A stretch of DNA of 14,553 nucleotides from an uncultured Sulfurovum sp. (GTDB taxonomy: Bacteria > Campylobacterota > Campylobacteria > Campylobacterales > Sulfurovaceae): NCBI GenBank assembly GCA_902727915.1, contig CACVAU010000086.1:1-14553 (forward strand), read 5' to 3'. This document shows positions 3-14,553 of the stretch, piece after piece. Both the position numbers and the translations under genes were made by a program. Positions within the stretch are counted from its first letter, which is position 1. Each line of letters begins with the position of its first letter. Below the pieces are notes generated by a model. That model searched no databases, was not told the origin of the DNA, and saw only the letters and a list, made by a program, of their open reading frames with translations.

Positions 3-2858
3 GGAGCCAAGACAGTTCGGGCTTTTTCCTCTTTTGAAAATGCTTTGGTTTATGTCATCTTTGAAGAGGGGCATGACATCTATTTTTCTCGTGATAGAGT
101 TGCCGAGAAAATTAATGAACTTCTACCCACCATTCCTAAATCAGCACAGATAAAAATGGGACCTGATGCCACAGGAATTGGTTGGGTGTATGAGTATGCT
201 TTAACTTCCAAAACCAAAGACCTGTCAGAGCTTTATGACTTACAAGAGTACTATTATAAATACGCACTATTAGGCATCAATGGTGTATCAGAAGTCGCAA
301 CAGTTGGTGGCTTTGAAAAGAATTATCAAATCACCATTAATGAACAAAAGCTAGTAGAACAGGGTTTAACCATTCAAGAGGTAACAAAAGCCATCAAAGC
401 AAATAATGAAGATCGTGGTGGTCGGATAATCTTAGAAAATGGTTATGAACAGATAGTTCAAGCTAATGGTTATGCAAAATCCGTACAAGATTTGGCTGAC
501 ATTGTCATAAACAATCACTACCATGGAAAACCTCTTAAAATCTCTGATGTTGCTACGGTAGATATGGTTCCTTCTTATCGTCGTGGTATGGTCGACTTAA
601 ATGGTGAAGGTGAGGTAGTAGGGGGCATTGTTGTTGTTCGTTACAAAGAGAATGCTTACGCTGTCATTCAAGAGATAAAAGAAAAGTTAGAGAAAATAAA
701 ACTTGCTGATGTAGACTTAGTAACCACCTATGATAGGTCAGACTTAATTACTAAAGCCATTAAGACTTTAACCACCACACTATTCGAAGAGTCTGTAGTG
801 GTACTGGTTATTGTTTTACTCTTTTTACTACATTTTCGTTCAGCGTTAGTCATCATCATTACTTTGCCTCTGACCATTGCCATTACTTTTTTACTCATGA
901 AGTGGGCAGGGGTTGAGTCTAACATTATGTCGCTGGGAGGAATCGCCATTGCCATAGGAGCGATGATAGATGCTTCCATTGTCATGGTAGAAAACGTCCA
1001 TAAGAAATTACAAGCCAATGGTGGTGAAAAACTTCAAGGAGAAGCACGAACAAAAATTATTTTAGATGCAGCCAAACAAGTTGGACGACCTATCTTTTTC
1101 GCGTTAATTCTTATAGTGGTTTCATTTCTACCTATTTTTGCATTGTCAGGTCAAGAGGGTGCTTTGTTTAAACCTTTGGCATATACTAAAACCTTTGCCA
1201 TGTTAACAGGGGCGATTATTTCTATAACACTTGTTCCTATTTTGATGGTCTATCTGGTTCGAGGTAAGATTTTAGATGAACGTAGAAACTGGTTAAATCG
1301 TTTTTTTATTTGGCTCTATTCTCCACTGCTTAAAGGGGCGTTGTGGTTACGTTTTGTTATGCCTGTTGTGTTGATAGGGGTTATTGCTTATGGGGTATGG
1401 ATTTACCAACAGCAAAAATGGGAATTTATGCCACCTCTCAATGAACAGACTTATATGTATATGCCTGTAACCCCTTACGGCATAGGGATTGACATGGCAA
1501 AAGAGTTAACGCAAAAGACTGACAAAATTATAAAAGAGAACTTTCCAGAGGTTGAAACCGTATTTGGAAAAGCAGGACGTGCCGACACAGCCACCGACCC
1601 AGCACCTCTTTCTATGATAGAGACTATTATTACTTTTAAACCAGAGAGTGAATGGCGAGAGGGAATGACTTATGAAAAGCTCATGAATGAGATGGAAGAG
1701 AAGTTACAAATAAAAGGTTTAACCAACTCATGGACTTATCCTATTCGTGGGCGAATTGACATGTTACTTTCAGGTATTAGAACGCCTTTAGGTATTAAAC
1801 TTTATGGTGACACAGCTGAAGAGTTAGCCAAGCAAGCCCAAGAGATTGAGAAACGACTGAAAAGTTATGGAGGAACACAATCAGCCTTTGCAGACAAGGC
1901 AAACTCTGGTTACTATTTAAATATTGATTTAAATGATGAGAAAATTGCAGAATACGGTATTACTAAAAATCTCATATTAGACACCATTTCAAATGGAGTA
2001 GGGGGCATGACAGTAGCCACACTCTATGACGGTATAAAACGTTACCCCATTTCAGTACGTTATGAGCAGTCAAAACGTTCAAATTTAACCAGTATAGGAA
2101 GCATACGGGTTAAAACGCCTTATGGCTATACCCCTTTAGAAACCTTTGCACATCTGTATTATAAAGAAGCACCTTCTATTTTAAAAGCTGAAAAAGGTAA
2201 GAAAGTAATTTTTATTTACATTACACCAAATCCAAACATTACTTCTCAAGTTTATAAAAAAGAGGGAATGAAACTTTTAGAAGATTTAGAACTACCTACA
2301 GGTTATTACTATGAGTGGGCAGGAGAGAGTGAGTACTTAGAGTCTGCTATGGAACGTTTGGCTTTTATTGTGCCTATTACGCTGTTTATTACATTTATTT
2401 TAATCTATTTAGGGTTAAACAATATGAGAAATGCACTCATAGTATTTTTCACTTTGCCTTTCGCAGCTGTAGGAGGAATTGTCTATTTAGACATGCTAGA
2501 CTTTAATTTTTCTATTGCTGTGGTAGTTGGGTTCTTGTCGCTCATTGGGGTAGCAACGGAGACAGCGATAGTTATGATTATCTATCTTGAAGAAGCTGTA
2601 CAAAAAGTTGTTAAACGAACCAAAGAAAATCTCAAAGAAGCCATCTATGAAGGGGCTGTTTTAAGAGTTCGTCCAAAGCTTATGACAGTCTTTGCTATTT
2701 TGGGTGGATTGTTGCCTATTATGTACATAGATGGGGTGGGGTCTGAAGTAATGCAACGGATCGCTGCTCCTATGATAGGAGGGGTTGTCTCTTCGGCTGT
2801 GTTGACACTTTTGGTGATTCCTGCTGTTTATTATGTGGTTTTGAAAAAAGAGAAGTAA
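3..2858 (+). CDS. cusA: CusA/CzcA-type heavy-metal efflux RND transporter, 5' end outside the window
   Basis: This is the inner-membrane proton-driven pump of a tripartite metal efflux complex that moves metal ions from periplasm or cytosol to the outside. The frame is open from base 3, where it reads GAKTVRAFSSF. In E. coli CusA this motif lies about 80 residues in, so only the N-terminus is missing; the TTG at 45 is internal. About 951 residues are visible of a usual ~1040. Copper/silver-type residues are seen: Met in the YMYMP, PLSMIET and RIDMLLSG segments, matching the CusA methionine relay as I recall it. The proton-relay acids and lysine are kept: Asp of GAMIDA (codon 969), Glu of GVATE (2559), Lys of VRPK (2676). 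Two large periplasmic portions separate the membrane bundles. The partner genes cusB and cusC, if present, must lie upstream. Cu/Ag specificity is inferred from motifs. Confidence 0.93.
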   Translation, partial: GAKTVRAFSSFENALVYVIFEEGHDIYFSRDRVAEKINELLPTIPKSAQIKMGPDATGIGWVYEYALTSKTKDLSELYDLQEYYYKYALLGINGVSEVATVGGFEKNYQITINEQKLVEQGLTIQEVTKAIKANNEDRGGRIILENGYEQIVQANGYAKSVQDLADIVINNHYHGKPLKISDVATVDMVPSYRRGMVDLNGEGEVVGGIVVVRYKENAYAVIQEIKEKLEKIKLADVDLVTTYDRSDLITKAIKTLTTTLFEESVVVLVIVLLFLLHFRSALVIIITLPLTIAITFLLMKWAGVESNIMSLGGIAIAIGAMIDASIVMVENVHKKLQANGGEKLQGEARTKIILDAAKQVGRPIFFALILIVVSFLPIFALSGQEGALFKPLAYTKTFAMLTGAIISITLVPILMVYLVRGKILDERRNWLNRFFIWLYSPLLKGALWLRFVMPVVLIGVIAYGVWIYQQQKWEFMPPLNEQTYMYMPVTPYGIGIDMAKELTQKTDKIIKENFPEVETVFGKAGRADTATDPAPLSMIETIITFKPESEWREGMTYEKLMNEMEEKLQIKGLTNSWTYPIRGRIDMLLSGIRTPLGIKLYGDTAEELAKQAQEIEKRLKSYGGTQSAFADKANSGYYLNIDLNDEKIAEYGITKNLILDTISNGVGGMTVATLYDGIKRYPISVRYEQSKRSNLTSIGSIRVKTPYGYTPLETFAHLYYKEAPSILKAEKGKKVIFIYITPNPNITSQVYKKEGMKLLEDLELPTGYYYEWAGESEYLESAMERLAFIVPITLFITFILIYLGLNNMRNALIVFFTLPFAAVGGIVYLDMLDFNFSIAVVVGFLSLIGVATETAIVMIIYLEEAVQKVVKRTKENLKEAIYEGAVLRVRPKLMTVFAILGGLLPIMYIDGVGSEVMQRIAAPMIGGVVSSAVLTLLVIPAVYYVVLKKEK

Positions 2859-2912
2859 TAGACTTCTTACAAAACTATTTTTAAAATGTAGTAAAATATA
2901 CTATTCGTCCTT

Positions 2913-2944
2913 TATATCCAAACCTGATAGAAGGTTTGGATATA
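2913..2944. terminator. Perfect 12-bp hairpin between convergent efflux genes
   Basis: Arms 2913-2924 and 2933-2944 are perfectly complementary around an 8-base loop. The hairpin sits 55 bases past the cusA stop and just beyond the stop of the minus-strand efflux remnant. A T7 run follows at 2954-2960 on the plus strand, about 10 bases from the stem. This is further than in a classical intrinsic terminator, and no T-run follows on the minus side. A terminator, perhaps bidirectional, is the simplest reading from position and stem strength. Confidence 0.6.
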
Positions 2945-2952
2945 GCTTGAGA

Positions 2953-4286
2953 CTATTTTTTTAGTAATCCAAAGCGTAAATAAAGAGCTGGTAAAATCAC
3001 CATATTAAGAAGCGTAGAGCTTAACAGTCCAAAGAGAATGACCATCGCCATAGGGGCTTGGATTTCACTTCCAGCTTCTCCTACTCCTAGTGCTAAAGGT
3101 ACCATTGCCAATCCTGCTGAGATAGCTGTCATTAGGATAGGTACGAGACGCTCTTTGGCTCCTTGCTTCACAGCCTGTTCAAAGTTGCTAACCTGCTCAT
3201 GTTGCATGAGGTTATGAATGTGAGCAATCATGATTACTCCATTACGCGTTGCTATACCTAACAAAGTGATAAACCCGATAATGGTTGCTACCGAGAGAAT
3301 ACCCCCTGCCATATAGAGTCCCACAACCCCTCTTATCATAGCAAAAGGTAGATTGAGTAAGATCAGCAATGCATCTCGAATAGAAGCAAATGCCATATAA
3401 AGAAGAATAAAGACCCCAAAGATAACAATCACCCCTAAAATAATCAACATATTAGAAGAAGCTTCAGCACTCTTAAACTGTCCACCATACTCGACTGTGT
3501 AGCCTTTTTGAATATATGCTCTATCGGACTCATACGCTTTAGCCACAATCCATAAAGAAGAAAGATCAGCTAATTTATAAACCTCCATCCCTTTTTTAAC
3601 AGAAGAACCTTCTGTAATAGATTTTTCAATAACAACACCTGAGTATGGTGAATATGCAACCGATGTTCTTTCCTCTTTTAAAATAATCTCCTCATTAAGA
3701 TTGAGCAGGGCTTGGGCTTGGTGTTGCAAATGTCTATAGTGCTTATCGATATTTTTCTCTTGTAGACGAAGCTGTTGCTGCATCAACGCAATGGGTGATT
3801 GCTCCAATCCTGACATCTCACCAGCTTGTTGACGTACTGTTGCTTTTTGATACAGTTGATGACTCTGGTTTAATTGTTGCTCTATGATAAAGCGTTGTCT
3901 CTTCGCAGCCAACAGCTTATAAAAGAGAGTTGCTGCTGAAGGGTATGCTCCTCTTTGAGGTAGCTGCTCTTCTCCAGTTCTAAATGAGCAAGCCTTTTTT
4001 TAGCTCGATGTTCACCCCATGATGGGAACTGCTGACTCACCTCTAAGTAGGTGTACTCCACAGAGCCTTCAAGCCCCTCATCAAACTCCATTTCTAAAGC
4101 AGGATTTTCTCATAGTGTTGATTGGGTGACTCTGCTTTTGTCGATATGAAGTTGAGTCTCATCTTGCTTAAGAGCAAATGAAGCCTCTAAAGCTTTTTCT
4201 ATAAAGCTATTTAGACTATATCGCTCTGTTGATTCGATTGCATGGCAATAATGCATTACCAGCAATAGTAAAATAGTGATTTTCAT
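2953..4286 (-). pseudogene. Collapsed tripartite efflux operon: OMF, MFP and RND segments joined in one remnant
   Basis: The remnant starts at ATG 4286, with AGGAG ten bases upstream and a signal peptide (MKITILLLLVMHYCHA). It reads as a CusC/TolC-like outer-membrane factor. A TGA at 4112-4110 interrupts it before ENPALEMEFDEGLEG. The same frame then reopens until about 3930, where roughly one base is missing and the reading moves to the frame that ends at 2953. That last 319-residue stretch has three parts: TolC-like coiled coil (to ~80), a CusB-like hairpin/lipoyl piece SPYSGVVIEKSITEGSSVKKG (~86-141), and the C-terminal ~178 residues of an HME-RND pump from GGQFKSAEAS with its membrane helices. 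Intact cusCBA or czcCBA would take about 5.5 kb; here it is 1.3 kb. The RND tail has ATRNG where CusA has the AAEFG/ATETA glutamate, so it derives from a different pump than the one at 3-2858. No working pump can be made. Confidence 0.88.
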
Positions 4287-4351
4287 CAATACATTACTCC
4301 TTATTTTATGTAATTTAATTATTAAAGTAGTAGGTTTTTAAATCTATATTT

Positions 4352-6094: not shown

Positions 6095-6188
6095 GGGGCT
6101 TACCCTAAAGGGTCGGGCTTGAACCTCTCCACTGCGTTCCAAGGCGAGTACACGGTACATCGCACTACGTGTTCTAATCCCTAAGCCA
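6095..6188. ncRNA. GC-rich hairpin-dense element, candidate structured RNA or DNA site
   Basis: This stretch is about 56% GC while its surroundings are about 30%. An outer pairing GGCTTA/TAAGCC (6097-6102 with 6182-6187) encloses three hairpins: ACCC-TAAA-GGGT (6102-6113, sharing base 6102 with the outer stem), CTTGAAC/GTTC-C-AAG (6118-6124 with 6136-6143, one bulge), and ACACG/CGTGT (6150-6154 with 6168-6172). GGG 6115-6117 can also pair with CCC 6179-6181. A GC-rich island with a closed multi-stem fold in AT-rich DNA is typical of a structured RNA. The strand is undecided because pairing works both ways. It is not a normal tRNA: stem lengths and T-loop do not fit. No open frame of note overlaps it. 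Confidence 0.4.
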
Positions 6189-6809
6189 TTGAACAATCTA
6201 TTAAAAAGAGACCACTCCACAAGACTTTTACTTTTTTCTCCACGCTGCTCCTAAAAAAGAAAAACCCCTATTCCATTACTGATAAAATATTGACCTCTTA
6301 TTTATCTCTGCCCGATTTTTATAAGAGAGTATTTCGCTATTCGCTGCATACCCACTCATAAAAGGTCACAGAGAAAGAAGAGCCAAATATTTTCTAAGTT
6401 TTTTTTCAATAGCTTATTCAATTCAATTGGAAAATCTACACTAACGTTCCGATTCTTTCATATCTTTTTATTTTCTTCTCAAGATGGAGATGCTTATGTC
6501 ACTTTGGCTGTTCTCATCCCCTCACGCTTCGTTACCCATATTCCTCACTTCATTCTAGCTAAAAACACTGCGTTAATACTGACTTTGGAATAAAAAGGAT
6601 TTTATCCCAAACCAAGTATTTTTTATCTCTTCTTCATTCGTCAACAGGGATAACGAAGCGTGATTGGACGAGAAAATCTTAACCATGAGTTGCAAGTTTC
6701 TCCACCTTGGAAAATAAAAAAGAGGTAGGGGATTCAAAACAGCTCATAAACAAGAAATTCAACCATTAAGCACGCTTATCTTTATAAATAGAATGAAAAG
6801 GATTTAACA
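6189..6809. other. Non-coding region upstream of the mobile-element genes
   Basis: About 620 bases have no convincing frame on either strand. The region holds the long inverted repeat and enclosed hairpin listed separately. AAAGGA at 6797-6802, seven bases before ATG 6810, is the ribosome site of the next gene. The concentration of structure and lack of coding suggest a replication, transfer or regulatory function, but nothing is diagnostic. Confidence 0.5.
6522..6663. repeat. Long inverted repeat (13+3 bp arms) enclosing a strong hairpin
   Basis: TCACGCTTCGTTA at 6522-6534 followed by CCC is the exact reverse complement of TAACGAAGCGTGA at 6651-6663 preceded by GGG plus one bulged A. The arms are about 110 bases apart. 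Inside lies a second hairpin at 6584-6611: TTTGG/CCAAA and ATAAAA/TTTTAT around an AGGA loop with one mismatch. Nested arms of this kind occur at replication origins, transfer origins and mobile-element ends. Which applies here is not clear. Confidence 0.6.
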
Positions 6810-7160: not shown

Positions 7161-7169
7161 GAGATGGCT

Positions 7170-7328
7170 ATGAAAATAAATAATAAGAAAAAAAGTTTTT
7201 TTGTAGTAATTGATGGAAGTGAAGAGGTGCTGTATCTGAAATGTTTAGATTTAGATGAGGCAGAAGATGAAGTAAAACGTTTTTTAAAAGTAGATGCTCT
7301 TAATGACTCTATAGAAATAATTTACTAA
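7170..7328 (+). CDS. 52-residue hypothetical protein
   Basis: ATG 7170 is preceded by AGGAG at 7159-7163, six bases away; the in-frame ATG at 7164 abuts the ribosome site and is less likely. The protein starts basic (MKINNKKKSFFVVIDG) and continues acidic (DLDEAEDEVKRFLKVD). It looks like a small soluble alpha/beta protein, with FFVVIDG.EEVLYLKCLD as a beta pair and EAEDEVKRFL as a helix. It lies 9 bases after the gene at 6810-7160 and 10 before the methylase-like gene, which supports a real operon member. The family is not recognised. Confidence 0.65.
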   Translation: MKINNKKKSFFVVIDGSEEVLYLKCLDLDEAEDEVKRFLKVDALNDSIEIIY

Positions 7329-7338
7329 AGGGCTGATA

Positions 7339-8142
7339 ATGAAATATGAAGAAGCACAAGAAGCATTTATAAAACTAATAGAGTCAAAATGCTATGAATT
7401 CCAAGCATGGGAACTCTTTACAGACTTTTGTAAACTCTCAGCCATTAGTATGTATCAACCTTTTTTAAAAAGTGAAGAACTTGAAAAAGAGTATATGCAA
7501 ACCATCAAAAAATATAAAAAAGAGATAGCCGAAATATTTCCACAACTTTTAGCCTTTGTTGTAATGGGGCTAGAAGATAAAATGGGTGATTTTCTAGGTG
7601 AATGCTTTATGGATCTAAAGCTAGGCTCAAAATATAAAGGTCAATTCTTTACCCCTTATAATATCTCTGTTTTTATGGCTTCCATTTTAGGAGAAGCCAC
7701 AGGAGAGAAAGAAAGCTTCTGTGAGCCTTGTGTCGGCTCTGGTGGCATGATTATTGCTAGAGCTGAGGTACTCTCTAAAAAACATGGATTAGCCTATCAA
7801 AATATTATGGAAGTTCACGCTGTAGATATAGATATACTCTGTGTTCACATGAGCTTTATACAATTATCCCTTTTAGGCATATCAGCAGAAGTAGTTCATG
7901 GCAATAGCTTATCTCTTGAAGTCTTTTCAAGATGGTACACACTCAAATATATTATGAATGCTTCAAATAAACAACATGTACCAAAAGAAGAAGAACAATT
8001 AACAGAAGAGGTTTTCACAGAAAAACAAGAAGATAGTGAACCCAAAAAAGAAAAAGTCACTTTACCTTGTGATGATATTGAAAACAAAATACTTTACTCC
8101 GATACTGAATTAGAAGTTTTTGCAACAGGAAAACTTTTTTAA
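7339..8142 (+). CDS. N6-adenine methylase-like protein lacking the NPPY motif
   Basis: The protein is 267 residues. It shows the start of an N-6 DNA methylase domain (PF02384 type): GQFFTP at 101-106, SAM-binding motif EPCVGSGGM at 129-137, DID at 163-165, and HGNSL at 187-191. After HGNSL, where the catalytic (N/D)PP(Y/F) should follow, the chain reads SLEVFSRWYTLKYIM and passes into a charged Glu/Lys-rich tail, then LFATGKLF-like hydrophobic residues at the end. Similar methylase-like proteins without NPPY are common on conjugative plasmids and transposons as far as I know. It may bind SAM or DNA without methylating, or need a partner. It starts at ATG 7339 after AAAGGG, last in the plus-strand trio, and ends 7 bases from the convergent traK stop. 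Confidence 0.85.
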   Translation: MKYEEAQEAFIKLIESKCYEFQAWELFTDFCKLSAISMYQPFLKSEELEKEYMQTIKKYKKEIAEIFPQLLAFVVMGLEDKMGDFLGECFMDLKLGSKYKGQFFTPYNISVFMASILGEATGEKESFCEPCVGSGGMIIARAEVLSKKHGLAYQNIMEVHAVDIDILCVHMSFIQLSLLGISAEVVHGNSLSLEVFSRWYTLKYIMNASNKQHVPKEEEQLTEEVFTEKQEDSEPKKEKVTLPCDDIENKILYSDTELEVFATGKLF

Positions 8143-8149
8143 CAAAACC

Positions 8150-8515
8150 TTATTTAATGATTCTATCCTCATCAACATTAGAGCTATGAGGATTGAATGC
8201 TTTAGCTTTAGAAAATGAAGGATATGAGATAATAGGTTCTGTGCTTTTTTCTTCTTTGTTTCCTTCAAGCTCAAAATTATCTTTCTTCTCTTGTTCAATT
8301 TTCTTAGAGCTACTATTAAGCTTTTTCTTTCCCTTTAATTCTTTTCTTGCATAATAACAAAAAGCTTGATAGTCCAAAGTAAGATTGTAGGTATCAACAA
8401 CTTTTTGATGTAGAATTTTAAAAACAACAAAACCTTGATTAAAATATAAATCTTTAATTTCATTAAGATGAGAGTAAAACTCAATCTTAAGCTCACCAGA
8501 ACCACGAATAGCCAT
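8150..8515 (-). CDS. traK: TraK-like oriT-binding protein
   Basis: The protein is 121 residues from ATG 8515, chosen because AGAGG (8521-8525) lies five bases upstream; the longer reading to 8566 lacks a ribosome site. Layout and composition match RP4 TraK (134 residues): an N-terminal helical part with KIEFYSHLNEIKDLY and YQAFCYYARKELK (RP4 has FSYETFRSHARRHIK at the same place), a low-complexity charged middle (~60-95), and a short conserved KAFNPHSS end (RP4: FTFNPTP). In RP4, TraK wraps the oriT DNA next to the nick and is divergent from traJ; the same arrangement is seen here. A TGATATAAT-type -10 at 8577-8582 probably drives it. Sequence identity is low, so position carries much of the call. 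Confidence 0.72.
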   Translation of the reverse strand: MAIRGSGELKIEFYSHLNEIKDLYFNQGFVVFKILHQKVVDTYNLTLDYQAFCYYARKELKGKKKLNSSSKKIEQEKKDNFELEGNKEEKSTEPIISYPSFSKAKAFNPHSSNVDEDRIIK

Positions 8516-8576
8516 AAAAACCTCTTTATTTGGAGTATAGTAAACTAGAATTTTAAATAAATTCAAAATATTTCAT

Positions 8577-8582
8577 ATTATA
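8577..8582 (-). promoter_or_regulatory. Putative extended -10 (TGATATAAT) for traK
   Basis: On the minus strand the bases read TGATATAAT, an exact TATAAT with an upstream TG. Transcription would begin near 8570, leaving a leader of about 55 bases before ATG 8515. Campylobacterota promoters usually show a strong -10 and a weak -35, as here. Confidence 0.45.
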
Positions 8583-8654
8583 TCAATATAAAACAAAAAG
8601 TAACAAAAATAACTAAAAATATGATATAGTTTTAAATATATTCAAAAGAAAAAA

Positions 8655-8734
8655 GGGCAGGATGGGATAATATCCGACAAAAACAAGTTTTTATCACAAA
8701 TTATCGTCCTGAAACTTATTCGCCATAAAATGGC
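8655..8734. other. oriT: Candidate origin of transfer (oriT), IncP type
   Basis: On the minus strand bases 8663-8655 read ATCCTG/CCC, the core of the RP4 nic site, placing the nick between 8658 and 8657. Just 5' of it on that strand is GGATA-T-TATCC (8675-8665). Next comes a 9-bp inverted repeat with one mismatch (8676-8684 with 8687-8695), then a perfect GCCAT/ATGGC hairpin (8722-8726 with 8730-8734). RP4 oriT has an inverted repeat about 8 bases 5' of nic in the same orientation. The site lies between divergent traK and traJ, as in RP4, and the linked relaxase is of the TraI type. No experiment shows that this site is nicked. Confidence 0.68.
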
Positions 8735-8884
8735 TTAACGAAAAATAAAGAAAAAGAAAAGAATTTTTGAAGAACAAATCAAAAAATATTGAGTAAAAAA
8801 GAAGCTAAAATCATCTAAAACACCTTTTTATCCATAACGGTAAAATAACAAAAAACTAATATTTATTAATATCAAAGAAGAAAG

Positions 8885-9244
8885 ATGACACCTAAAAAAG
8901 CCCAAAGAACCAAGCATATAGACAGCCGACTAACTGAAGATGAATACAATATCATCTCAGAAAAAGCAAAAAACACAGGACTTTCCAATTCAAAATACAT
9001 AAGAAACCTAGCCATGAATTACCCCATAAAATCCACCGTTGATCAAAGAGCCTTAGCTGAACTGGTAAAGTGTAAATCAGACTTAGGAAGATTAGGGGGC
9101 TTATTCAAACTATGGTTAGAGAGTGAGAATGGTACGTGGGGTAATCTAGGTGATAGACATTATGAAGATATCTCTGACTTGGTTGATGATCTAATAGCTA
9201 AAGAAGATGAGCTACTTCAGATTGCCAGAAAGCTTTTGGATTAG
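8885..9244 (+). CDS. traJ: TraJ/MobC-like relaxosome accessory protein
   Basis: The protein is 119 residues, against about 123 for RP4 TraJ. The N-terminal half (RTKHIDSRLTEDEYNIISEK, then GLSNSKYIRNLA, residues 8-43) is a ribbon-helix-helix DNA-binding fold. The GRLGGLFKLWL box at 68-78 is the typical TraJ/MobC signature. TraJ binds the right arm of the oriT repeat and loads the relaxase. ATG 8885 has only a weak purine-rich ribosome site (AAGAAGAAAG). The gene ends five bases before the relaxase start, so the two are co-translated, and it faces the oriT candidate about 150 bases upstream. Confidence 0.87.
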   Translation: MTPKKAQRTKHIDSRLTEDEYNIISEKAKNTGLSNSKYIRNLAMNYPIKSTVDQRALAELVKCKSDLGRLGGLFKLWLESENGTWGNLGDRHYEDISDLVDDLIAKEDELLQIARKLLD

Positions 9245-9249
9245 TTCTT

Positions 9250-10839
9250 ATGATAGTTAAACAAGTTTCGTCAAAGGGAAAAGGTTCATTTAAAGCATTG
9301 GCAGCCTATCTACTTGATTTAAAGAATGATGGTGAGAAAGCAGAAATGTATGATTTTTCTAATTGTCCATTTGATTTGGTAGAGGAGAATATATCCTATA
9401 TTAAACAGATGCAAGAACTTAATCAAATGGTACATTCTGATAAGTCTTTACATTTGGTAGTCTCTTTTCAAGAAGAGGAGAAGCCTAGTTTAGAGGTATT
9501 AGCTGATATTGAGATGGAGTTGTTAAAGAGTCTAAATATGCAAGAACATCATAGGTTATCGGTGAGTCACAACAATACCAATAACTTTCATTTACATATT
9601 GCCGTTAATAGATTGAATCCTCATAATAACCTTTTAGTTGATCCATGGAAGTCTAAAATGAAACTTCAAAAAAAAGCTCAAGAGCTTGAAGAGAAACACA
9701 AATTAAAAAAAGACAATCATCCTGTTCAGTTGATTGTGGATGAAAAGGTGTTTTTAGTAGAGGGTAATAAAAGTTCTAATATTAAAGATAACCAATACAA
9801 AGACCAGGAGATACATTCTGGTATGAAAAATCTTTTAACATGGATTAAAGAAGAAGCTCTTGATGAGATACTTGAAGTGCTTAATCATTCTACAAGTACT
9901 TATGAAGATTTGCATGACGTTTTAGCGAAATACAATTTAGAATTGAAGAGTAGGGCGAATGGTTTGGTCATAGGAGATAAGCATAGAAAACTTTTTGTTA
10001 AAGCGAGTGATGTTCATCGTTCTTTATCTAAAGGAAACCTAGAGAGACGATTTGGGTTGTTTCTTGAAAGCCAAAGTAGTATCAGTGCAGAAAAGTTTTT
10101 TGGAAAGCCTAAGTCCTTTTTATGGGAGAACTATCAAAGGCTAATGGAGCAGCGAAAGATTACTAAGAAAAGTGAACTCTCACTTGAAAAAGAGAGTAGG
10201 TTAGCATTAAGACAAAGTATAAAGTTAAAATATAAAGAGCAGCTAGCGTTAGTAAAATTTAATAATAACATACCCTCAAATCAAAAGCCTCAACATCGAC
10301 AGATTATTTATGCTCATCAAAAAGAAGAGCTTCAAGAATTATCAGAACGTTTTAGTCAAAAGAGAAAAGATATTCATAAACTAAATAGACTTTATTCGTA
10401 TAAAGAGTATCTTTTAGAAAAAGCTCTAAAAGGTGATGAAAAAGCACTTGAAGCATTAAGACGAACGACGATGAGCTTTAAAGCAAATGAGAATATTTTA
10501 CGGCATCCTAAAGGAAAAGTAAATCATCAACTTTGGGAGAGTTTAAAGGTTCAAATAACCAAAGAGGGAAAAGCTGTTTATGAAGTTGAAGGGAATGGAA
10601 AAGTTATTGATACAGGGGCTTATCTGAAAGTAACGGTTGAAGATAATGATAGGGCTATTTTAACTTCATTGCAGATGGCTAAAAAGAAGTATGGAGATGT
10701 TTTAGAGATACAAGGTAGCTTAGAATTTAAAAAGCGTGTGATGATGGTGGATGAGCGTTATGAGTTAGGGTTGGAGTTTACAGATAAGGCTATGAAGAGA
10801 ATTCAAGAGCAGGATGTTAAAAAGGGGATGGGGCTATAG
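9250..10839 (+). CDS. traI: TraI-type (MOBP) relaxase with C-terminal LPD7 domain
   Basis: The protein is 529 residues. It nicks oriT through a tyrosine and pilots the strand into the recipient. Motif I Tyr20 sits in KALAAYLLD, aligning with Tyr22 of RP4 TraI. Motif II is HLVVSF (Ser72). Motif III is the metal-binding HLHIAVN (His114, His116, Asn120), close to RP4 HIHIAIN; LNPHNNL follows. A TraI middle domain comes next (~200-265, YEDLHDVLAKYNLELKSR). The C-terminus (~440-514) has the features of an LPD7 domain (GKVIDTGAYLKV, MAKKKYGD, IQGSLEFKKR). RP4 TraI is 732 residues, so this is shorter. It lies directly behind traJ. All catalytic residues are kept, so it should be active. Confidence 0.94.
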   Translation: MIVKQVSSKGKGSFKALAAYLLDLKNDGEKAEMYDFSNCPFDLVEENISYIKQMQELNQMVHSDKSLHLVVSFQEEEKPSLEVLADIEMELLKSLNMQEHHRLSVSHNNTNNFHLHIAVNRLNPHNNLLVDPWKSKMKLQKKAQELEEKHKLKKDNHPVQLIVDEKVFLVEGNKSSNIKDNQYKDQEIHSGMKNLLTWIKEEALDEILEVLNHSTSTYEDLHDVLAKYNLELKSRANGLVIGDKHRKLFVKASDVHRSLSKGNLERRFGLFLESQSSISAEKFFGKPKSFLWENYQRLMEQRKITKKSELSLEKESRLALRQSIKLKYKEQLALVKFNNNIPSNQKPQHRQIIYAHQKEELQELSERFSQKRKDIHKLNRLYSYKEYLLEKALKGDEKALEALRRTTMSFKANENILRHPKGKVNHQLWESLKVQITKEGKAVYEVEGNGKVIDTGAYLKVTVEDNDRAILTSLQMAKKKYGDVLEIQGSLEFKKRVMMVDERYELGLEFTDKAMKRIQEQDVKKGMGL

Positions 10840-11123: not shown

Positions 11124-11345
11124 TTAGGATGGGTGTCTTCGACCTTGTTCCCAATTTCGTAAAGTCGCAACAGAAATATTTAAAAGTTTCGCAAACTCAT
11201 CTTGTGTTAAATTAAATTTTGAACGAATCTCTTTTGCATTAGGCTCATCAATATAAAAAGTACGACTAGGAGTATTTTTTTTAGCTAATATCTCTTTAGC
11301 TTCTTTTGTACTTGCTAATAATTCATTAAATAATGTATCATCCAT
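11124..11345 (-). pseudogene. NadS/HigA-type Xre antitoxin, C-terminus cut off
   Basis: The reading is 73 residues. It is N-terminally typical of the NadS family (MDDTLFNELLASTKEAKEIL), then SRTFYIDEPNAKEIRSKF and a helix-turn-helix LTQDEFAKLLNISVATLRNWEQGRRHP. In the family this is followed by GPA.ALL and about 25 more residues; here a TAA follows RRHPS directly. The DNA-binding helices are therefore present but the usual end is lost. ATG 11345 starts two bases after the stop of the toxin relic, the normal toxin-first order. It might still bind its operator as a small repressor, so calling it dead is an inference. Confidence 0.72.
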
Positions 11346-11347
11346 CT

Positions 11348-11566
11348 TTAGTCCTTCATAAAAGTTTTTCTAAGTATCTCTATCTGTTTAGGGCTTAAGT
11401 CTTCAGTTTTATTTTTTTCATAAACGAAAATCATTAAAATTAGACTATCATCTTCATGATAGTAGTAGATATTACGAATCCCACCACTTTTACCACGACC
11501 TTTAAATCTATACAAAAAAAGACGATGGAGCTTTGAGCTATTTTGTTTGGCGTTCCTTTGAGTTTT
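11348..11566 (-). pseudogene. HigB/RelE-like toxin, N-terminus lost
   Basis: The frame is open from 11566 to TAA 11350-11348. Its C-terminal part reads LYRFKGRGKSGGIRNIYYYHE, then LILMIFVYEKNKTEDLSPKQ and IEILRK. These are the hallmarks of the RelE/HigB toxin paired with NadS (GRGKSGG.R.IYY, L.IY.KN...DL). The first ~40 residues of a normal toxin are missing; upstream the frame meets TGA at 11569-11567 and no start or ribosome site is found. A second frame (LTEKLKGTPNKIAQ) looks like the displaced upstream piece, suggesting a frameshift near 11540. Loss of the N-terminal half should abolish mRNA cleavage. The cut lies beside the end of the ATPase gene at 11589. Confidence 0.7.
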
Positions 11567-11588
11567 TCAGTTAATGAGTAAAAAAATG

Positions 11589-13007
11589 TTAATTTAAGAT
11601 ATTATGAATACTAATATCTTTATAAACAAGTTCATTATAATACTCATTAGCTGTTACTCCAAAGGGTGTTACAAATATAAGTCGTATATTATATTTGTAT
11701 TTTGTTTGTTCATTGAAAATAGAAATCTTTTCTCTTAACTCTTCATAATATTTTTTTGTAATAGTAAAGGTACTGTCATAATATTTACATTCTATAATAT
11801 CTATGTTTTTACTACCATCTACATACTCAAGTAACATATCTATTTGAGCTCCTTTGTCCCCTCTATGTTGCCAATAATGTGTTTGTGTGTTAACACCAGA
11901 AACACCTAATTGTTCTTTAATTTCATGCGTGTGAATATGACAGAGGTTTTCAAATGCAAAACCAGCCCATACTTTGTAGCGTTGAGAAAGAGCTATTTCT
12001 TTAAAGTTGATATTTGTTTGATCTTTCATCCATTTATTGTAGAAGTAAGAAAAAGGATCAGTAGCCCTATAAACCTTTTCTCGGCTTTTTTTACCAAATA
12101 GAGTAACTGAAGAGATAAAGCCTGAGAGTTCTAATTCATCTAAAACTTTGTTAATAGTTGAAGGAGAGGTATTTAGCTCTTTGGTTATCTCTTTTTGAAT
12201 GTATCCACTCCATTTAGATGAGAGTAGATTCATGATTTTATAATGCCATTGTGCATTTTGAAAAAGAGAATGGTAGAGATCTTGGTATTCAGTAATAAGT
12301 AGTCCATTTTTATTAAAACATTGATAAGAGATATTTTCAAGTTGATGCTTTGTACAGTCAAGATCTTCAAGATATTTAGCTACTCCCCCTAATACAATAT
12401 AAGTATCGACTATAGATTTATCGCTGTATTTACAATGCTTACTTTCTAAAAATTCTTTTGTAGTTTTTAATCTAAAAGGCTGCATGTGTAGTTTTTTTGT
12501 TACTCTATTATGTAGGGTCTTTTTGTTTTTAATAATTTTATTAATCATGTAGGAGGTGGCTGAACCACAGACAATTAATATAATATCTGTTCGTCTTGTA
12601 CAAAAGTCATTCCAAAACTCAGAAAAAGCAGATAAAAATTTAGAACGGTGTGTATCGAGCCATGGGAACTCGTCTAAAAAAATGACTTTTTTTTCATTAT
12701 CTAGCGTTTCAATGTAATCTTCAAGCATAAAAAAAGCATCTTGCCACTCTTTAAATTTTTCCTTTGTTGATATTTTACCTTTTGAAGCTCTTTCAATTTT
12801 TCTTACAAATGCATTAATCTGTGTTGTTTTTGTTGAGCCATAAACACCTGTAATTTCTATACTATGTAAGTTATGTGTTCGAATAAAGTGTCGAATGGTT
12901 TCTGTTTTTCCAATTCTACGTCTACCATAAACAACGGTGAAAGTAGAAGAAGCCTTTTTTATTAAGCTTTCTAAATCATGTAATTCTTCTTGACGACCTA
13001 TAAACAT
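11589..13007 (-). CDS. Archaeal-type AAA ATPase with C-terminal DUF234/nuclease-like domain
   Basis: The protein is 472 residues from ATG 13007. GGAG lies six bases upstream at 13017-13014, so the TTG at 13019 is rejected. Walker A is GRRRIGKT (28-35) and Walker B is VIFLDEFPW (108-116), typical of the ATPase_2 family (PF01637). A sensor-like CGSATS follows. A winged-helix segment lies at ~265-300 (YIQKEITKELNTSPSTINK). The C-terminal third is DUF234-like with a PD-(D/E)xK-type pattern: Glu353, Asp390 in AQIDMLL, and Glu406-x-Lys408 in IIECKYY. This suggests NTP-driven DNA or RNA binding with nuclease activity. Family members are frequent in mobile and genomic-island settings, and their role is unsettled. 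It stands alone on the minus strand with its own promoter. Confidence 0.9.
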   Translation of the reverse strand: MFIGRQEELHDLESLIKKASSTFTVVYGRRRIGKTETIRHFIRTHNLHSIEITGVYGSTKTTQINAFVRKIERASKGKISTKEKFKEWQDAFFMLEDYIETLDNEKKVIFLDEFPWLDTHRSKFLSAFSEFWNDFCTRRTDIILIVCGSATSYMINKIIKNKKTLHNRVTKKLHMQPFRLKTTKEFLESKHCKYSDKSIVDTYIVLGGVAKYLEDLDCTKHQLENISYQCFNKNGLLITEYQDLYHSLFQNAQWHYKIMNLLSSKWSGYIQKEITKELNTSPSTINKVLDELELSGFISSVTLFGKKSREKVYRATDPFSYFYNKWMKDQTNINFKEIALSQRYKVWAGFAFENLCHIHTHEIKEQLGVSGVNTQTHYWQHRGDKGAQIDMLLEYVDGSKNIDIIECKYYDSTFTITKKYYEELREKISIFNEQTKYKYNIRLIFVTPFGVTANEYYNELVYKDISIHNILN

Positions 13008-13037
13008 ATTCAACTCCAATATATACTTATTTTGATG

Positions 13038-13194: not shown

Positions 13195-13353
13195 AGTCTA
13201 TCTACTACTATTGACACTCCGATAAAGTTCAATATTCTTTTACCAGAGAATACTTTAGGAAATTATAGTTTCATTCTTATTGGCTACTTAATTACACTTG
13301 TCGCTTCATCTATTTCTAGTCTTTTTATTTTTCCCATAATCTCACTATTCTAA
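13195..13353 (+). pseudogene. Fragment of a second TraB-like nitrilase joined to a membrane-helix fragment
   Basis: The frame between TAA 13192 and TAA 13351 reads DTPIKFNILLPENTLGNYS from 13213. This equals the active-site segment NTQSYNILLPENALGNYS of the TraB gene at 14325-14378. Over 45 bases the two differ at about six positions, almost all silent, so this is a diverged homologue rather than a fresh copy. After NYS the reading passes into a hydrophobic segment FILIGYLITLVASSISSLF not found in TraB at that place, perhaps from another conjugation gene. The catalytic Glu is present but nothing else of the domain. No start or ribosome site is seen. Confidence 0.6.
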
Positions 13354-13365
13354 CATAAATCTTAT

Positions 13366-13650
13366 TTGTGTTTAATTCTTAGGTACTACTTAACAGAAAG
13401 TTTACAGGAGATATCACGTCCTCTTTTAACACCTGATGAATGCATGAGATTACCAGGAGCTAAAAAAGATACTAATGGACAAGTGGTAGAAGGTGGGGAT
13501 ATGCTTATTTTTATTGCAGGACAAGCACCTATTTATGGAAAACAAATACTCTTTTTTAAAGACCAAGTTTTTTTAGATAGATCTAAAGTAGCAGTATCTC
13601 AATTTACCTCCCCTACTTTCAAAGATGAAGATGAAGTAAAATTAGCTTGA
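13366..13650 (+). pseudogene. traG: C-terminal relic of a TraG/VirD4-type coupling protein
   Basis: From about residue 10 the reading LTESLQEISRPLLTPDECM, then RLPGAKKDTNGQVVEGGDML, IFIAGQAPIYGKQILFF and a short Lys-rich end is the C-terminus of the IncP-type T4SS coupling protein TraG (SRPL.TPDE..RL, GD...F.AG..PI.G.Q.LYF). TraG is about 630 residues; only ~85 are here, and both Walker motifs are missing. TTG 13366 has no ribosome site and is not a credible start. The same frame runs upstream into the TraB fragment, broken only by TAA 13351. The stop TGA 13648-13650 overlaps the next gene. It may survive because it carries that overlap. Confidence 0.8.
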
Positions 13651-14553
13651 GTTATTTGTCATCTGTAAGTTCTTTTCTTTTATCACTTCTAGCTGGAATG
13701 TTTGTTGGGTATGTTTCTTGGGGTCACAATCTTAGTTTCACCATACTATCTTTATCTCTTTTTCTTATTTATATGATAGTTGATAAACGATGGCTCCTAT
13801 TTGGATTTGTATGGGCATATTATCTTATGGCGAGTCGAGGCTTTTTATTGGGTGTAGAGAACTATTATCAAAGTTTGGGATATGCTTTTTTAGCTTGGGT
13901 GAGTGTGGCGACAATTTCAGGTTTACTGTGGATTTTGATATGGAGTAGATTTTTTAAAAAAAGACTTTTACTCTTTCCATTTCTTTTAATCGTTATGATA
14001 GTTCCACCATTTGGTTTTATATCATGGGTTAACCCTTTACCAACCATTGCTGTTCTACTTCCTAGTTTTGGCTTTATGGGTATTTTTATAGAGATAATGG
14101 TTATTTATGCATTGGCTCTATTGTGGAGGAACTATGCTTATGCTAGATATTATGGGATACCTCTCATCAGTATTATTCTAATTTTGACAATCTATTATTT
14201 TCCTCCTACTGTAACAAAGAATTTATCCATTGAAAGTGTACAAAGTGACATTGAGTATTTCCCAATGACCTTTAATAAATCAAAAGAGTATAAGACTTTA
14301 AAAACCTTTTTTTATAAAGTTCAAAACACTCAAAGTTACAATATCCTTTTACCTGAAAATGCTTTGGGAAATTATAGTGCTGTTCAATCTATGTTATGGC
14401 AAGATTTAAACAAAAGTAGAACAGTCTTTGCAGGAGCTACCATTTATAATGCTAAACGTTCTAAAAATATTAATGCTCTTTTAGAGATAGAACATAATAG
14501 AAGTAAAATTCTTTATAAACAAAGAGTTCCTGTTTTAGGGGAGATGTGGAAGC
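13647..14553 (+). CDS. traB: TraB-like conjugal transfer protein (membrane-bound nitrilase), right end outside the window
   Basis: The frame is open for 302 codons to the window edge. The first ~190 residues are very hydrophobic with six or more membrane helices, as in RP4 TraB and apolipoprotein N-acyltransferase. A periplasmic carbon-nitrogen hydrolase domain follows: catalytic Glu237 in LLPENALGNYS and the likely catalytic Lys291 in YKQRVPVLGEMW (Lnt has Y-K...LVPFGE); the Cys would lie beyond the window. TTG 13647 overlaps the TraG stop (TTGA), suggesting translational coupling; TTG 13656 or ATG 13698 are alternatives with no better ribosome site. TraB is needed for transfer of some IncP-like plasmids, and its substrate is not settled. 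It is the only conjugation-apparatus gene here that may be intact. Confidence 0.82.
   Translation, partial: MSYLSSVSSFLLSLLAGMFVGYVSWGHNLSFTILSLSLFLIYMIVDKRWLLFGFVWAYYLMASRGFLLGVENYYQSLGYAFLAWVSVATISGLLWILIWSRFFKKRLLLFPFLLIVMIVPPFGFISWVNPLPTIAVLLPSFGFMGIFIEIMVIYALALLWRNYAYARYYGIPLISIILILTIYYFPPTVTKNLSIESVQSDIEYFPMTFNKSKEYKTLKTFFYKVQNTQSYNILLPENALGNYSAVQSMLWQDLNKSRTVFAGATIYNAKRSKNINALLEIEHNRSKILYKQRVPVLGEMWK

Follow-up and report, generated by a model that had tools for sequence, protein, structure and literature searches.

The DNA analyzed here (the window) is an entire contig of 14,553 bases, and its nearest organism is Sulfurovum. Between positions 8150 and 10839 it carries a traK-like gene on the minus strand, an origin of transfer (oriT), traJ, and traI, arranged in the order and orientation of the plasmids of incompatibility group P (IncP); the features are collected in Table 1. 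The open reading frames (ORFs) on which the initial annotation had based this layout are present, and the Campylobacterota background it had proposed was correct, as both the relatives found by TraI and the relaxase tree agree with it. The closest TraI relatives occur in metagenome-assembled genomes (MAGs) named Sulfurovum or "Campylobacteraceae bacterium", at five loci out of 14 candidate stretches, with TraI identities of 88, 72, and 71% over the full length and of 89 and 94% over parts of the protein. Judged from its genes and sites, the region very probably constitutes the DNA-processing (Dtr) core of a Sulfurovaceae conjugative element of the IncP type (MOBP).

Table 1. Coordinates of the transfer core and of the other features of the window (nt, nucleotides; aa, amino acids)
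Feature	Position	Strand	Remarks
Module A, cloverleaf (four-way junction)	6096..6189	- (transferred sense)	12 copies, 22 pairs, covariation
Module B, further structured stretch	6190..6455	-	occurs in three other places with no module C
Module C, long imperfect hairpin	6456..6757	-	89 predicted pairs, 3 of them in a small separate hairpin
orf6810, small gene, 116 aa	6810..7160	+	conserved in 3 loci
orf7164, small gene	7164..7328	+	conserved in 3 loci
N6_Mtase-like gene	7339..8142	+	methylase motif I (GSGG) present
traK-like gene, 121 aa	8150..8515	-	four short helices predicted, disordered linker, conserved C-tail FNPHSSNVDEDRIIK
Leader from nic to traK, predicted TraK-binding stretch	8516..8656		84% AT; binding predicted from AT content and by analogy with RP4
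Predicted nic, CATCCTG^CCC	8658/8657	-	between G8658 and C8657; leading end faces traK
Imperfect inverted repeat 19-2-19, predicted TraJ site	8666..8705	-	15/19 paired; 8 nt from nic
GAATAAG box	8715..8721	-	shared with IncP oriTs; lies 64 nt before nic
traJ (NikA/TraJ family)	8885..9244	+	directly before traI; DLGRLGGL motif as in IncP TraJ
traI, relaxase, 529 aa	9250..10839	+	family profiles, tree, aligned catalytic residues
traG remnant	13390..13647	+	corresponds to residues 519-604 in a relative of 604 aa
Gene that follows traG in relatives	13695..14552	+	matched to residue 295 of 383, at contig end

The relaxase TraI

TraI matched the NCBIfam model NF041893 (TraI_MobP_relax) with 358 bits, against a cut-off of 250, along model positions 1-502 of 502. 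The Pfam domains Relaxase, TraI_middle, and LPD7 were recognized, and the protein ends just past LPD7, whereas TraI of the IncP plasmid R751 is composed of the same three domains plus TraI-like_C. The relaxase had been annotated as about 200 residues shorter than its IncP counterpart, with an LPD7 end, which agrees with the lengths of 529 and 747 residues, although LPD7 is also a domain of the R751 protein. Residues Tyr20, Ser72, His107, His114, and His116 align with Tyr22, Ser74, His109, His116, and His118 of R751 TraI, and are identical across the five aligned proteins; the R751 histidines form the three-histidine motif of relaxases. Tyr22 is named as the catalytic residue in PMC7314908.

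A search of 72,556 plasmid records with TraI yielded 4138 matching records, 69 of them from Campylobacter, and the best 50 of the 4138 were Campylobacter plasmids with 36.7-37.7% identity. In an even sample of the plasmid matches, the next-best after Campylobacter were mainly IncP-type plasmids, at 27-30% identity. A tree of 27 relaxases, with just two outgroup rows and several rows of long branches or skewed composition, separated the IncP and Campylobacterota proteins (25 rows) from the IncL/M and IncI NikB relaxases with a support of 100/100, and all 18 Campylobacterota rows fell on one side of a second 100/100 branch, beside IncP. The proposed membership of the TraI/MOBP1 clade was thus supported. 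A further suggestion, that the core links host ranges, did not fare as well: because the Campylobacterota TraI proteins form a branch of their own, long residence in the phylum seems favored over a recent host-range bridge.

TraJ and the origin of transfer

TraJ belongs to the Pfam NikA-like family (4.9e-21), and its best NCBIfam model was TraJ PRK13877 (9e-22), yet the score was under that model's cut-off. Read on the minus strand from traJ towards traK, the intergenic DNA presents GAATAAG (8721-8715), a 19-base arm, TT, the second arm, eight bases, and CATCCTG^. The ATCCTG motif occurs a single time in the 1900 bases before traI in this direction. The repeat, with 15 of 19 positions paired at 8 nt, was equaled at that distance by none of 2000 shuffled sequences, and by none of 500 when the best of 49 placings was taken; the IncP-like nic and repeats that had been noticed in the traK-traJ gap are upheld. 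The R751 oriT consists of a 19-2-19 repeat (17/19), 8 bases, and CATCCTG. In RP4, according to PMC7314908, a 19-bp repeat situated 8 bp from nic is bound by TraJ, and TraK binds a curved region of about 200 bp downstream of the traK promoter.

The GAATAAG box, which stems from our own comparison and not from a paper, lies 64-67 nt before nic in five Campylobacterota loci (the window, L002, L003, L004, and L025) and 58-63 nt before nic in all six IncP-type oriTs with a nic match; by chance, 12 of 5000 simple shuffles have it in the 76 bases before nic. The box is also present in QKH54, where nic was unmatched, and was not found near nic in L007, L046, L026, L027, L029, or IncI. Loci L002, L003, and L004 keep both nic and box. 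Their repeats pair at 13, 14, and 16 of 19 positions, and 2, 1, and 0 of 500 shuffled sequences did as well when the best of 49 placings was taken. The repeat is unremarkable in the Campylobacter plasmids L007 and L046, for which 85 and 32 of 500 shuffles were as good.

The TraK-like protein

The traK-like gene starts with ATG at 8515, with an alternative upstream TTG at 8566. A search of 5.8 billion proteins with its product returned 37 matches, itself included. A profile built from IncP proteins only (R751 TraK and 33 of 91 database relatives) was run on 1195 ORFs, each 50 aa or longer, taken from the window and the locus set. Seven IncP-type TraK genes came out on top (R751 itself being in the profile), and the next ranks, down to E = 0.0025, were occupied exclusively by genes that hold the TraK position in Campylobacterota loci, namely L025, L003, L002, L007, L046, the window, and L029. 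The window gene, with E = 0.0012, was the best-scoring ORF of the window, and the following match, from L004 and likewise at the TraK place, had E = 0.19. When the 37 proteins of the window family were compared with this profile at the same database size, 22 scored below 0.01, three between 0.01 and 0.02, and 12 above 0.05.

AlphaFold models of the window protein and of an IncP-type TraK, with predicted local distance difference test (pLDDT) values of 70.5 and 67.2, both consist of short helices and a disordered tail. The helices comprise residues 6-15, 17-26, 32-43, and 49-60 in the window protein, and 5-19, 25-42, 47-57, and 64-76 in the IncP-type model. The C-terminal tails are alike in form: FNPHSSNVDEDRIIK in the window, FNPHATKIDPKRILN in L025, FDAKFGKDIKEDDLL in L007, and FTFDATPKKEDLL in R751. 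Identification of 8150-8515 as a distant TraK is supported by these comparisons; the initial annotation had made this call at low identity, and the profile finds the gene and no unrelated family claims it. The N-terminal domain of TraK seems to be exchangeable. The N-terminal half of protein P0037 resembles that of L002 and is fused to a window-type C-tail, and one type of N-terminal domain is paired with two C-tails among P0037, P0010, and L002:4790-5176.

Evidence against an IncP-type core

Several findings in oriT, TraI, traG, and TraK weigh against this assignment. The oriT of the IncI plasmid L045 has a 17/19 repeat, the same 8-nt and 2-nt spacing, and a CATCCTG nic, without the GAATAAG box, and the 19-bp repeat architecture does not tell IncP from IncI. 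Among the six IncP-type oriTs with a nic match, just R751 and Sphingobium have at least 15 of 19 pairs at the exact 8-nt and 2-nt spacing; two others have 16 at a different spacing, L038 has 12, and L040 has 9. In L002-L004, the best repeat lies 7 or 9 nt from nic, and both arms have other letters. The GAATAAG box is the more telling IncP mark than the inverted repeat. TraI-like_C (PF22287) was not listed in the Pfam scan for TraI of the window, L002, or Campylobacter, and only the core of TraI appears to be common to the window and IncP.

The coupling-protein gene traG is truncated, no part of it other than the remnant being found in the window. Since the contig carries only this remnant, the assembled copy would depend on a coupling protein supplied by another source; an assembly chimera or misassembly could be the cause of the break. 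It is on the unlikely side that the relaxosome is no longer functional, a chance survivor from a decayed plasmid or integrated element. The reduction of traG to its last 86 residues, the displaced pieces of the next gene at 11504-11575 and 13229-13270 (which point to rearrangement or misassembly), and the apparently decayed efflux-gene pieces on the same contig would fit such decay, but the reading frames of traI, traJ, and traK are open and contain the conserved residues, nic, box, and repeat have been retained, and traG is complete in the related loci L001, L002, and L005. Elsewhere in the contig, an AcrB-family efflux gene runs from the contig start, and is followed by the decayed-looking efflux-gene pieces on the opposite strand (45-4289). 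A NadS/RelE-like gene pair, each member slightly under its cut-off, and an ATPase gene occupy 11124-13019, after traI and ahead of the traG remnant; L001 has different cargo at the matching place, ATPase- and Fic-like by eye.

The TraK-like protein reached no Pfam or NCBIfam family at cut-off (S1FA, E = 0.075, was sub-threshold), the Pfam TraK family PF17273 (DUF5338), which lists R751 TraK, does not list it, and tblastn gave no plasmid match at 0.01. Profile-profile comparison with IncP TraK by hhalign was weak as well (P = 0.012 for A1 and 0.0017 for A4, with 0.17 for the TraI control). It is nevertheless highly improbable that 8150-8515 is an unrelated small regulator at the TraK place by chance, as the missing family, the weak hhalign result, and the lack of a tblastn match might suggest, because the IncP-only profile ranked it, out of 1195 ORFs, among the genes at the TraK place, its C-tail is similar in form to those of IncP TraK, and both models share the short helices and the disordered tail.

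Distribution in the phylum and relation to known plasmids

Sixteen of 397 sampled Campylobacterota genomes matched TraI at 0.001, and strong matches were found in 12 genomes (13 loci). TraK and TraJ were present beside TraI, within a 1.5-kb flank, in four of the 13 loci (G003, G221, G139, and G088, the last with an extra ORF between the TraK and TraJ genes); the locus of G028 is at a contig edge, where this flank cannot be judged, and TraK with TraJ was not found within 1.5 kb of TraI in the remaining eight. The four-part layout, for which a search in other Campylobacterota had been proposed, does recur there, and because it occurs in four of the 13 strong loci, it is one among several TraI settings in the phylum.

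The layout was also found in two Campylobacter plasmids, L007 (NZ_AP028389) and L046 (NZ_CP044263), which carry a traK-like gene, traJ, and traI in the same order as the window. Their TraK proteins are annotated as hypothetical, and a trb set is annotated in L046. TraI of the pCC42-kind Campylobacter plasmids is 37-38% identical to that of the window over 98-99%. The two Campylobacter plasmids L007 and L046 differ from the window in their nic (TATCCTG^T), in the lack of a GAATAAG box nearby, in a repeat that does not stand out from shuffles, and in the length of TraI, which is 718 aa in NZ_AP028389. Type-2 (pCC42) accessions among the TraI matches include CP017867, CP017874, CP013736, and CP011016, and IncP-type TraI, TraL, and trb genes are ascribed to these plasmids in PMC6145009, the main text of which does not mention TraK, TraJ, or oriT. 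An IncP-type core is thus not new to the phylum, since Campylobacter plasmids carry it and the TraI, TraL, and trb genes of the pCC42 group have been published; its novelty is limited, the kind being already known.

R751, and RP4 by the literature, share with the window the gene order and orientation, the nic sequence CATCCTG^CCC, the 19-2-19 repeat 8 nt away, the GAATAAG box at about 60 nt, the TraJ and TraI families, and the Relaxase-TraI_middle-LPD7 domains of TraI. The window differs from R751 in a TraI that is about 30% identical and without TraI-like_C, and in a TraK unmatched by PF17273. Nor do traL and traM adjoin traK as they do in R751; in the relative G003:C65, they lie about 30 kb from it on the contig. 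This 49-kb contig, which has no exact terminal overlap, carries traG-, traI-, traJ-, and traK-like genes, genes for TrbB, TrbE, TrbJ, TrbL, TrbG, and TraF above cut-off, TrbF-, TrbI-, TraL-, and TraM-like genes below cut-off, a Rep_3 initiator, and, by eye, partition-like genes. VirB4-type genes were found in two of the four MAGs that hold close loci. At least one near relative thus has matching trb-type secretion genes, and its relaxosome belongs to a larger trb-type element.

The leading region and its folded element

By the polarity of the predicted nic, the recipient would first receive the DNA to the left of 8657. The two small genes and the N6_Mtase-like gene of this leading region lie on the plus strand, and therefore have the transferred strand (T-strand) as template. 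The N6_Mtase-like protein matched 2051 plasmid records at 1e-5, 1411 of them typed conjugative, but only four matches extend over 80% of its length; no NPPF/Y-like motif was seen by eye in four aligned proteins. Both methylases and single-strand promoters are reported from leading regions in PMC11541004, and plasmid methylases specific for single strands have been described in PMC7736820. In L028 (161-1240), a TraI gene without a TraK found alongside is followed by homologues of the N6_Mtase-like gene and, as judged by eye, of orf6810.

Upstream of this operon, positions 6096-6757 are non-coding (no ORF longer than 54 aa), with a mean column identity of 88% in a four-locus alignment. For the transferred and the opposite sense, respectively, its folding z-scores were -5.7 and -3.4 as DNA, and -7.5 and -3.5 as RNA; DNA energies were stabler for the transferred sense in nine of nine stretches, but its z-score was better in only six of nine. 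In the 12 copies of module A, 94.3% of 264 cells are paired and 10 of the 22 pairs changed on both sides, and covariation was 0.323, compared with 0.110 when shuffled (0/500) and at most 0.072 when slid, for a structure taken from the fold of one member, of which RNAalifold alone recovered only part. In the six copies of module C, 95.3% of 533 cells are paired, 13 of the 89 pairs changed on both sides, and covariation was 0.189, compared with 0.100 when shuffled (0/500) and at most 0.082 when slid, the structure being derived from the same alignment used in this test; for further pair types, 32 of the 500 shuffles did as well. For both modules, the shuffles ignore the relatedness of the copies. 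The hairpin loop of module A is GNA in 12 of 12 copies.

With strict filters, a covariance model of module A gave 16 matches in seven of 175 genomes of the family, and found one of the 397 genomes of the phylum sample, namely G003. Five of the 16 lie outside the model-building set: those of G484 (63 bits) and G489 (56 bits), and those of G003:C48 and, twice, G473 (27-32 bits). Among the 17 copies examined for context, one is at a contig end; in ten of the other 16, the nearest gene-side ORF is T-strand-templated, and in six it is not. All six copies with module C precede a T-strand-templated operon. An oriT is on the same contig for five of the 17 copies, always in the same sense, but four of the five represent one position that relatives have in common. 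A contig of G524 carries two copies of the cloverleaf along with genes for a single-stranded DNA-binding protein (SSB) and a relaxase of the TrwC type and two methylase-like genes; the cloverleaf is thus common to a plasmid-like contig with a different relaxase.

No known match to 6096-6757 was found, and no Rfam family at gathering score. By eye, the A10 stem has no conserved -35, and the base of the stem is A/T-rich and invariant. As described in PMC9849209 and PMC11541004, Frpo of F and ColIb-P9 shares with this element the leading-region position and the transferred-strand fold, and the location of module C copies upstream of T-strand-templated genes, as well as the presence of more than one copy per contig, are Frpo-like. 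Its differences from Frpo, compared by description, are the extent of about 660 nt, the cloverleaf, and a stem in which no conserved -35/-10 pair could be seen. It may be a single-strand-acting control element resembling Frpo. We tentatively put forward that, in these Sulfurovaceae plasmids, it represents a family of DNA elements not described before, in which a cloverleaf with a GNA loop is combined with a long hairpin; the element would fold in the transferred strand as long as this is single-stranded, and would start complementary-strand priming or the transcription of early genes, such as those of the N6-methylase-like operon.

That 6096-6757 is instead transcribed in the minus sense, as an RNA gene or leader, is somewhat unlikely. 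An RNA would be expected to show structure and covariation just as well, and the RNA z-score in the minus sense is -7.5, but the stretch lies just upstream of genes read the opposite way, has no Rfam family, and has a three-base GNA loop in every copy of module A. GNA loops form very stable DNA hairpins, and are stable in RNA as well. A small non-autonomous mobile or repetitive element, similar to miniature inverted-repeat transposable elements (MITEs), repetitive extragenic palindromic (REP) sequences, or insertion sequences of the IS200/605 kind, is slightly more doubtful. Several copies per genome (five in G004), the copies of G004:C26 and C80 that are squeezed between adjacent genes, and the six of 16 module A copies not followed first by a T-strand-templated gene would suit it, whereas the consistent position of module C ahead of T-strand-templated operons, and the company of a different relaxase type, SSB, and methylase-like genes in G524, speak against it.

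Proposed mechanism and significance

The genes, their families, their layout, and the conserved architecture of oriT are features of the DNA itself, and homology to the IncP system suggests how they would work. TraJ would bind the 19-2-19 inverted repeat and TraK the AT-rich leader, TraI Tyr20 would cut the minus strand between G8658 and C8657 and stay on the 5' end, and the strand would leave with the traK side first and traJ-traI-traG last.

These findings show that the IncP-type transfer start has its own branch in Campylobacterota, with IncP oriT features kept at about 30% protein identity. Because these features persist despite such divergence, the co-evolution of oriT and TraJ can be studied across phyla. 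The folded element of the leading region is the part that deserves specialist attention: if it acts on single-stranded DNA, it would offer a test of early conjugation gene expression beyond the enterobacterial Frpo plasmids.

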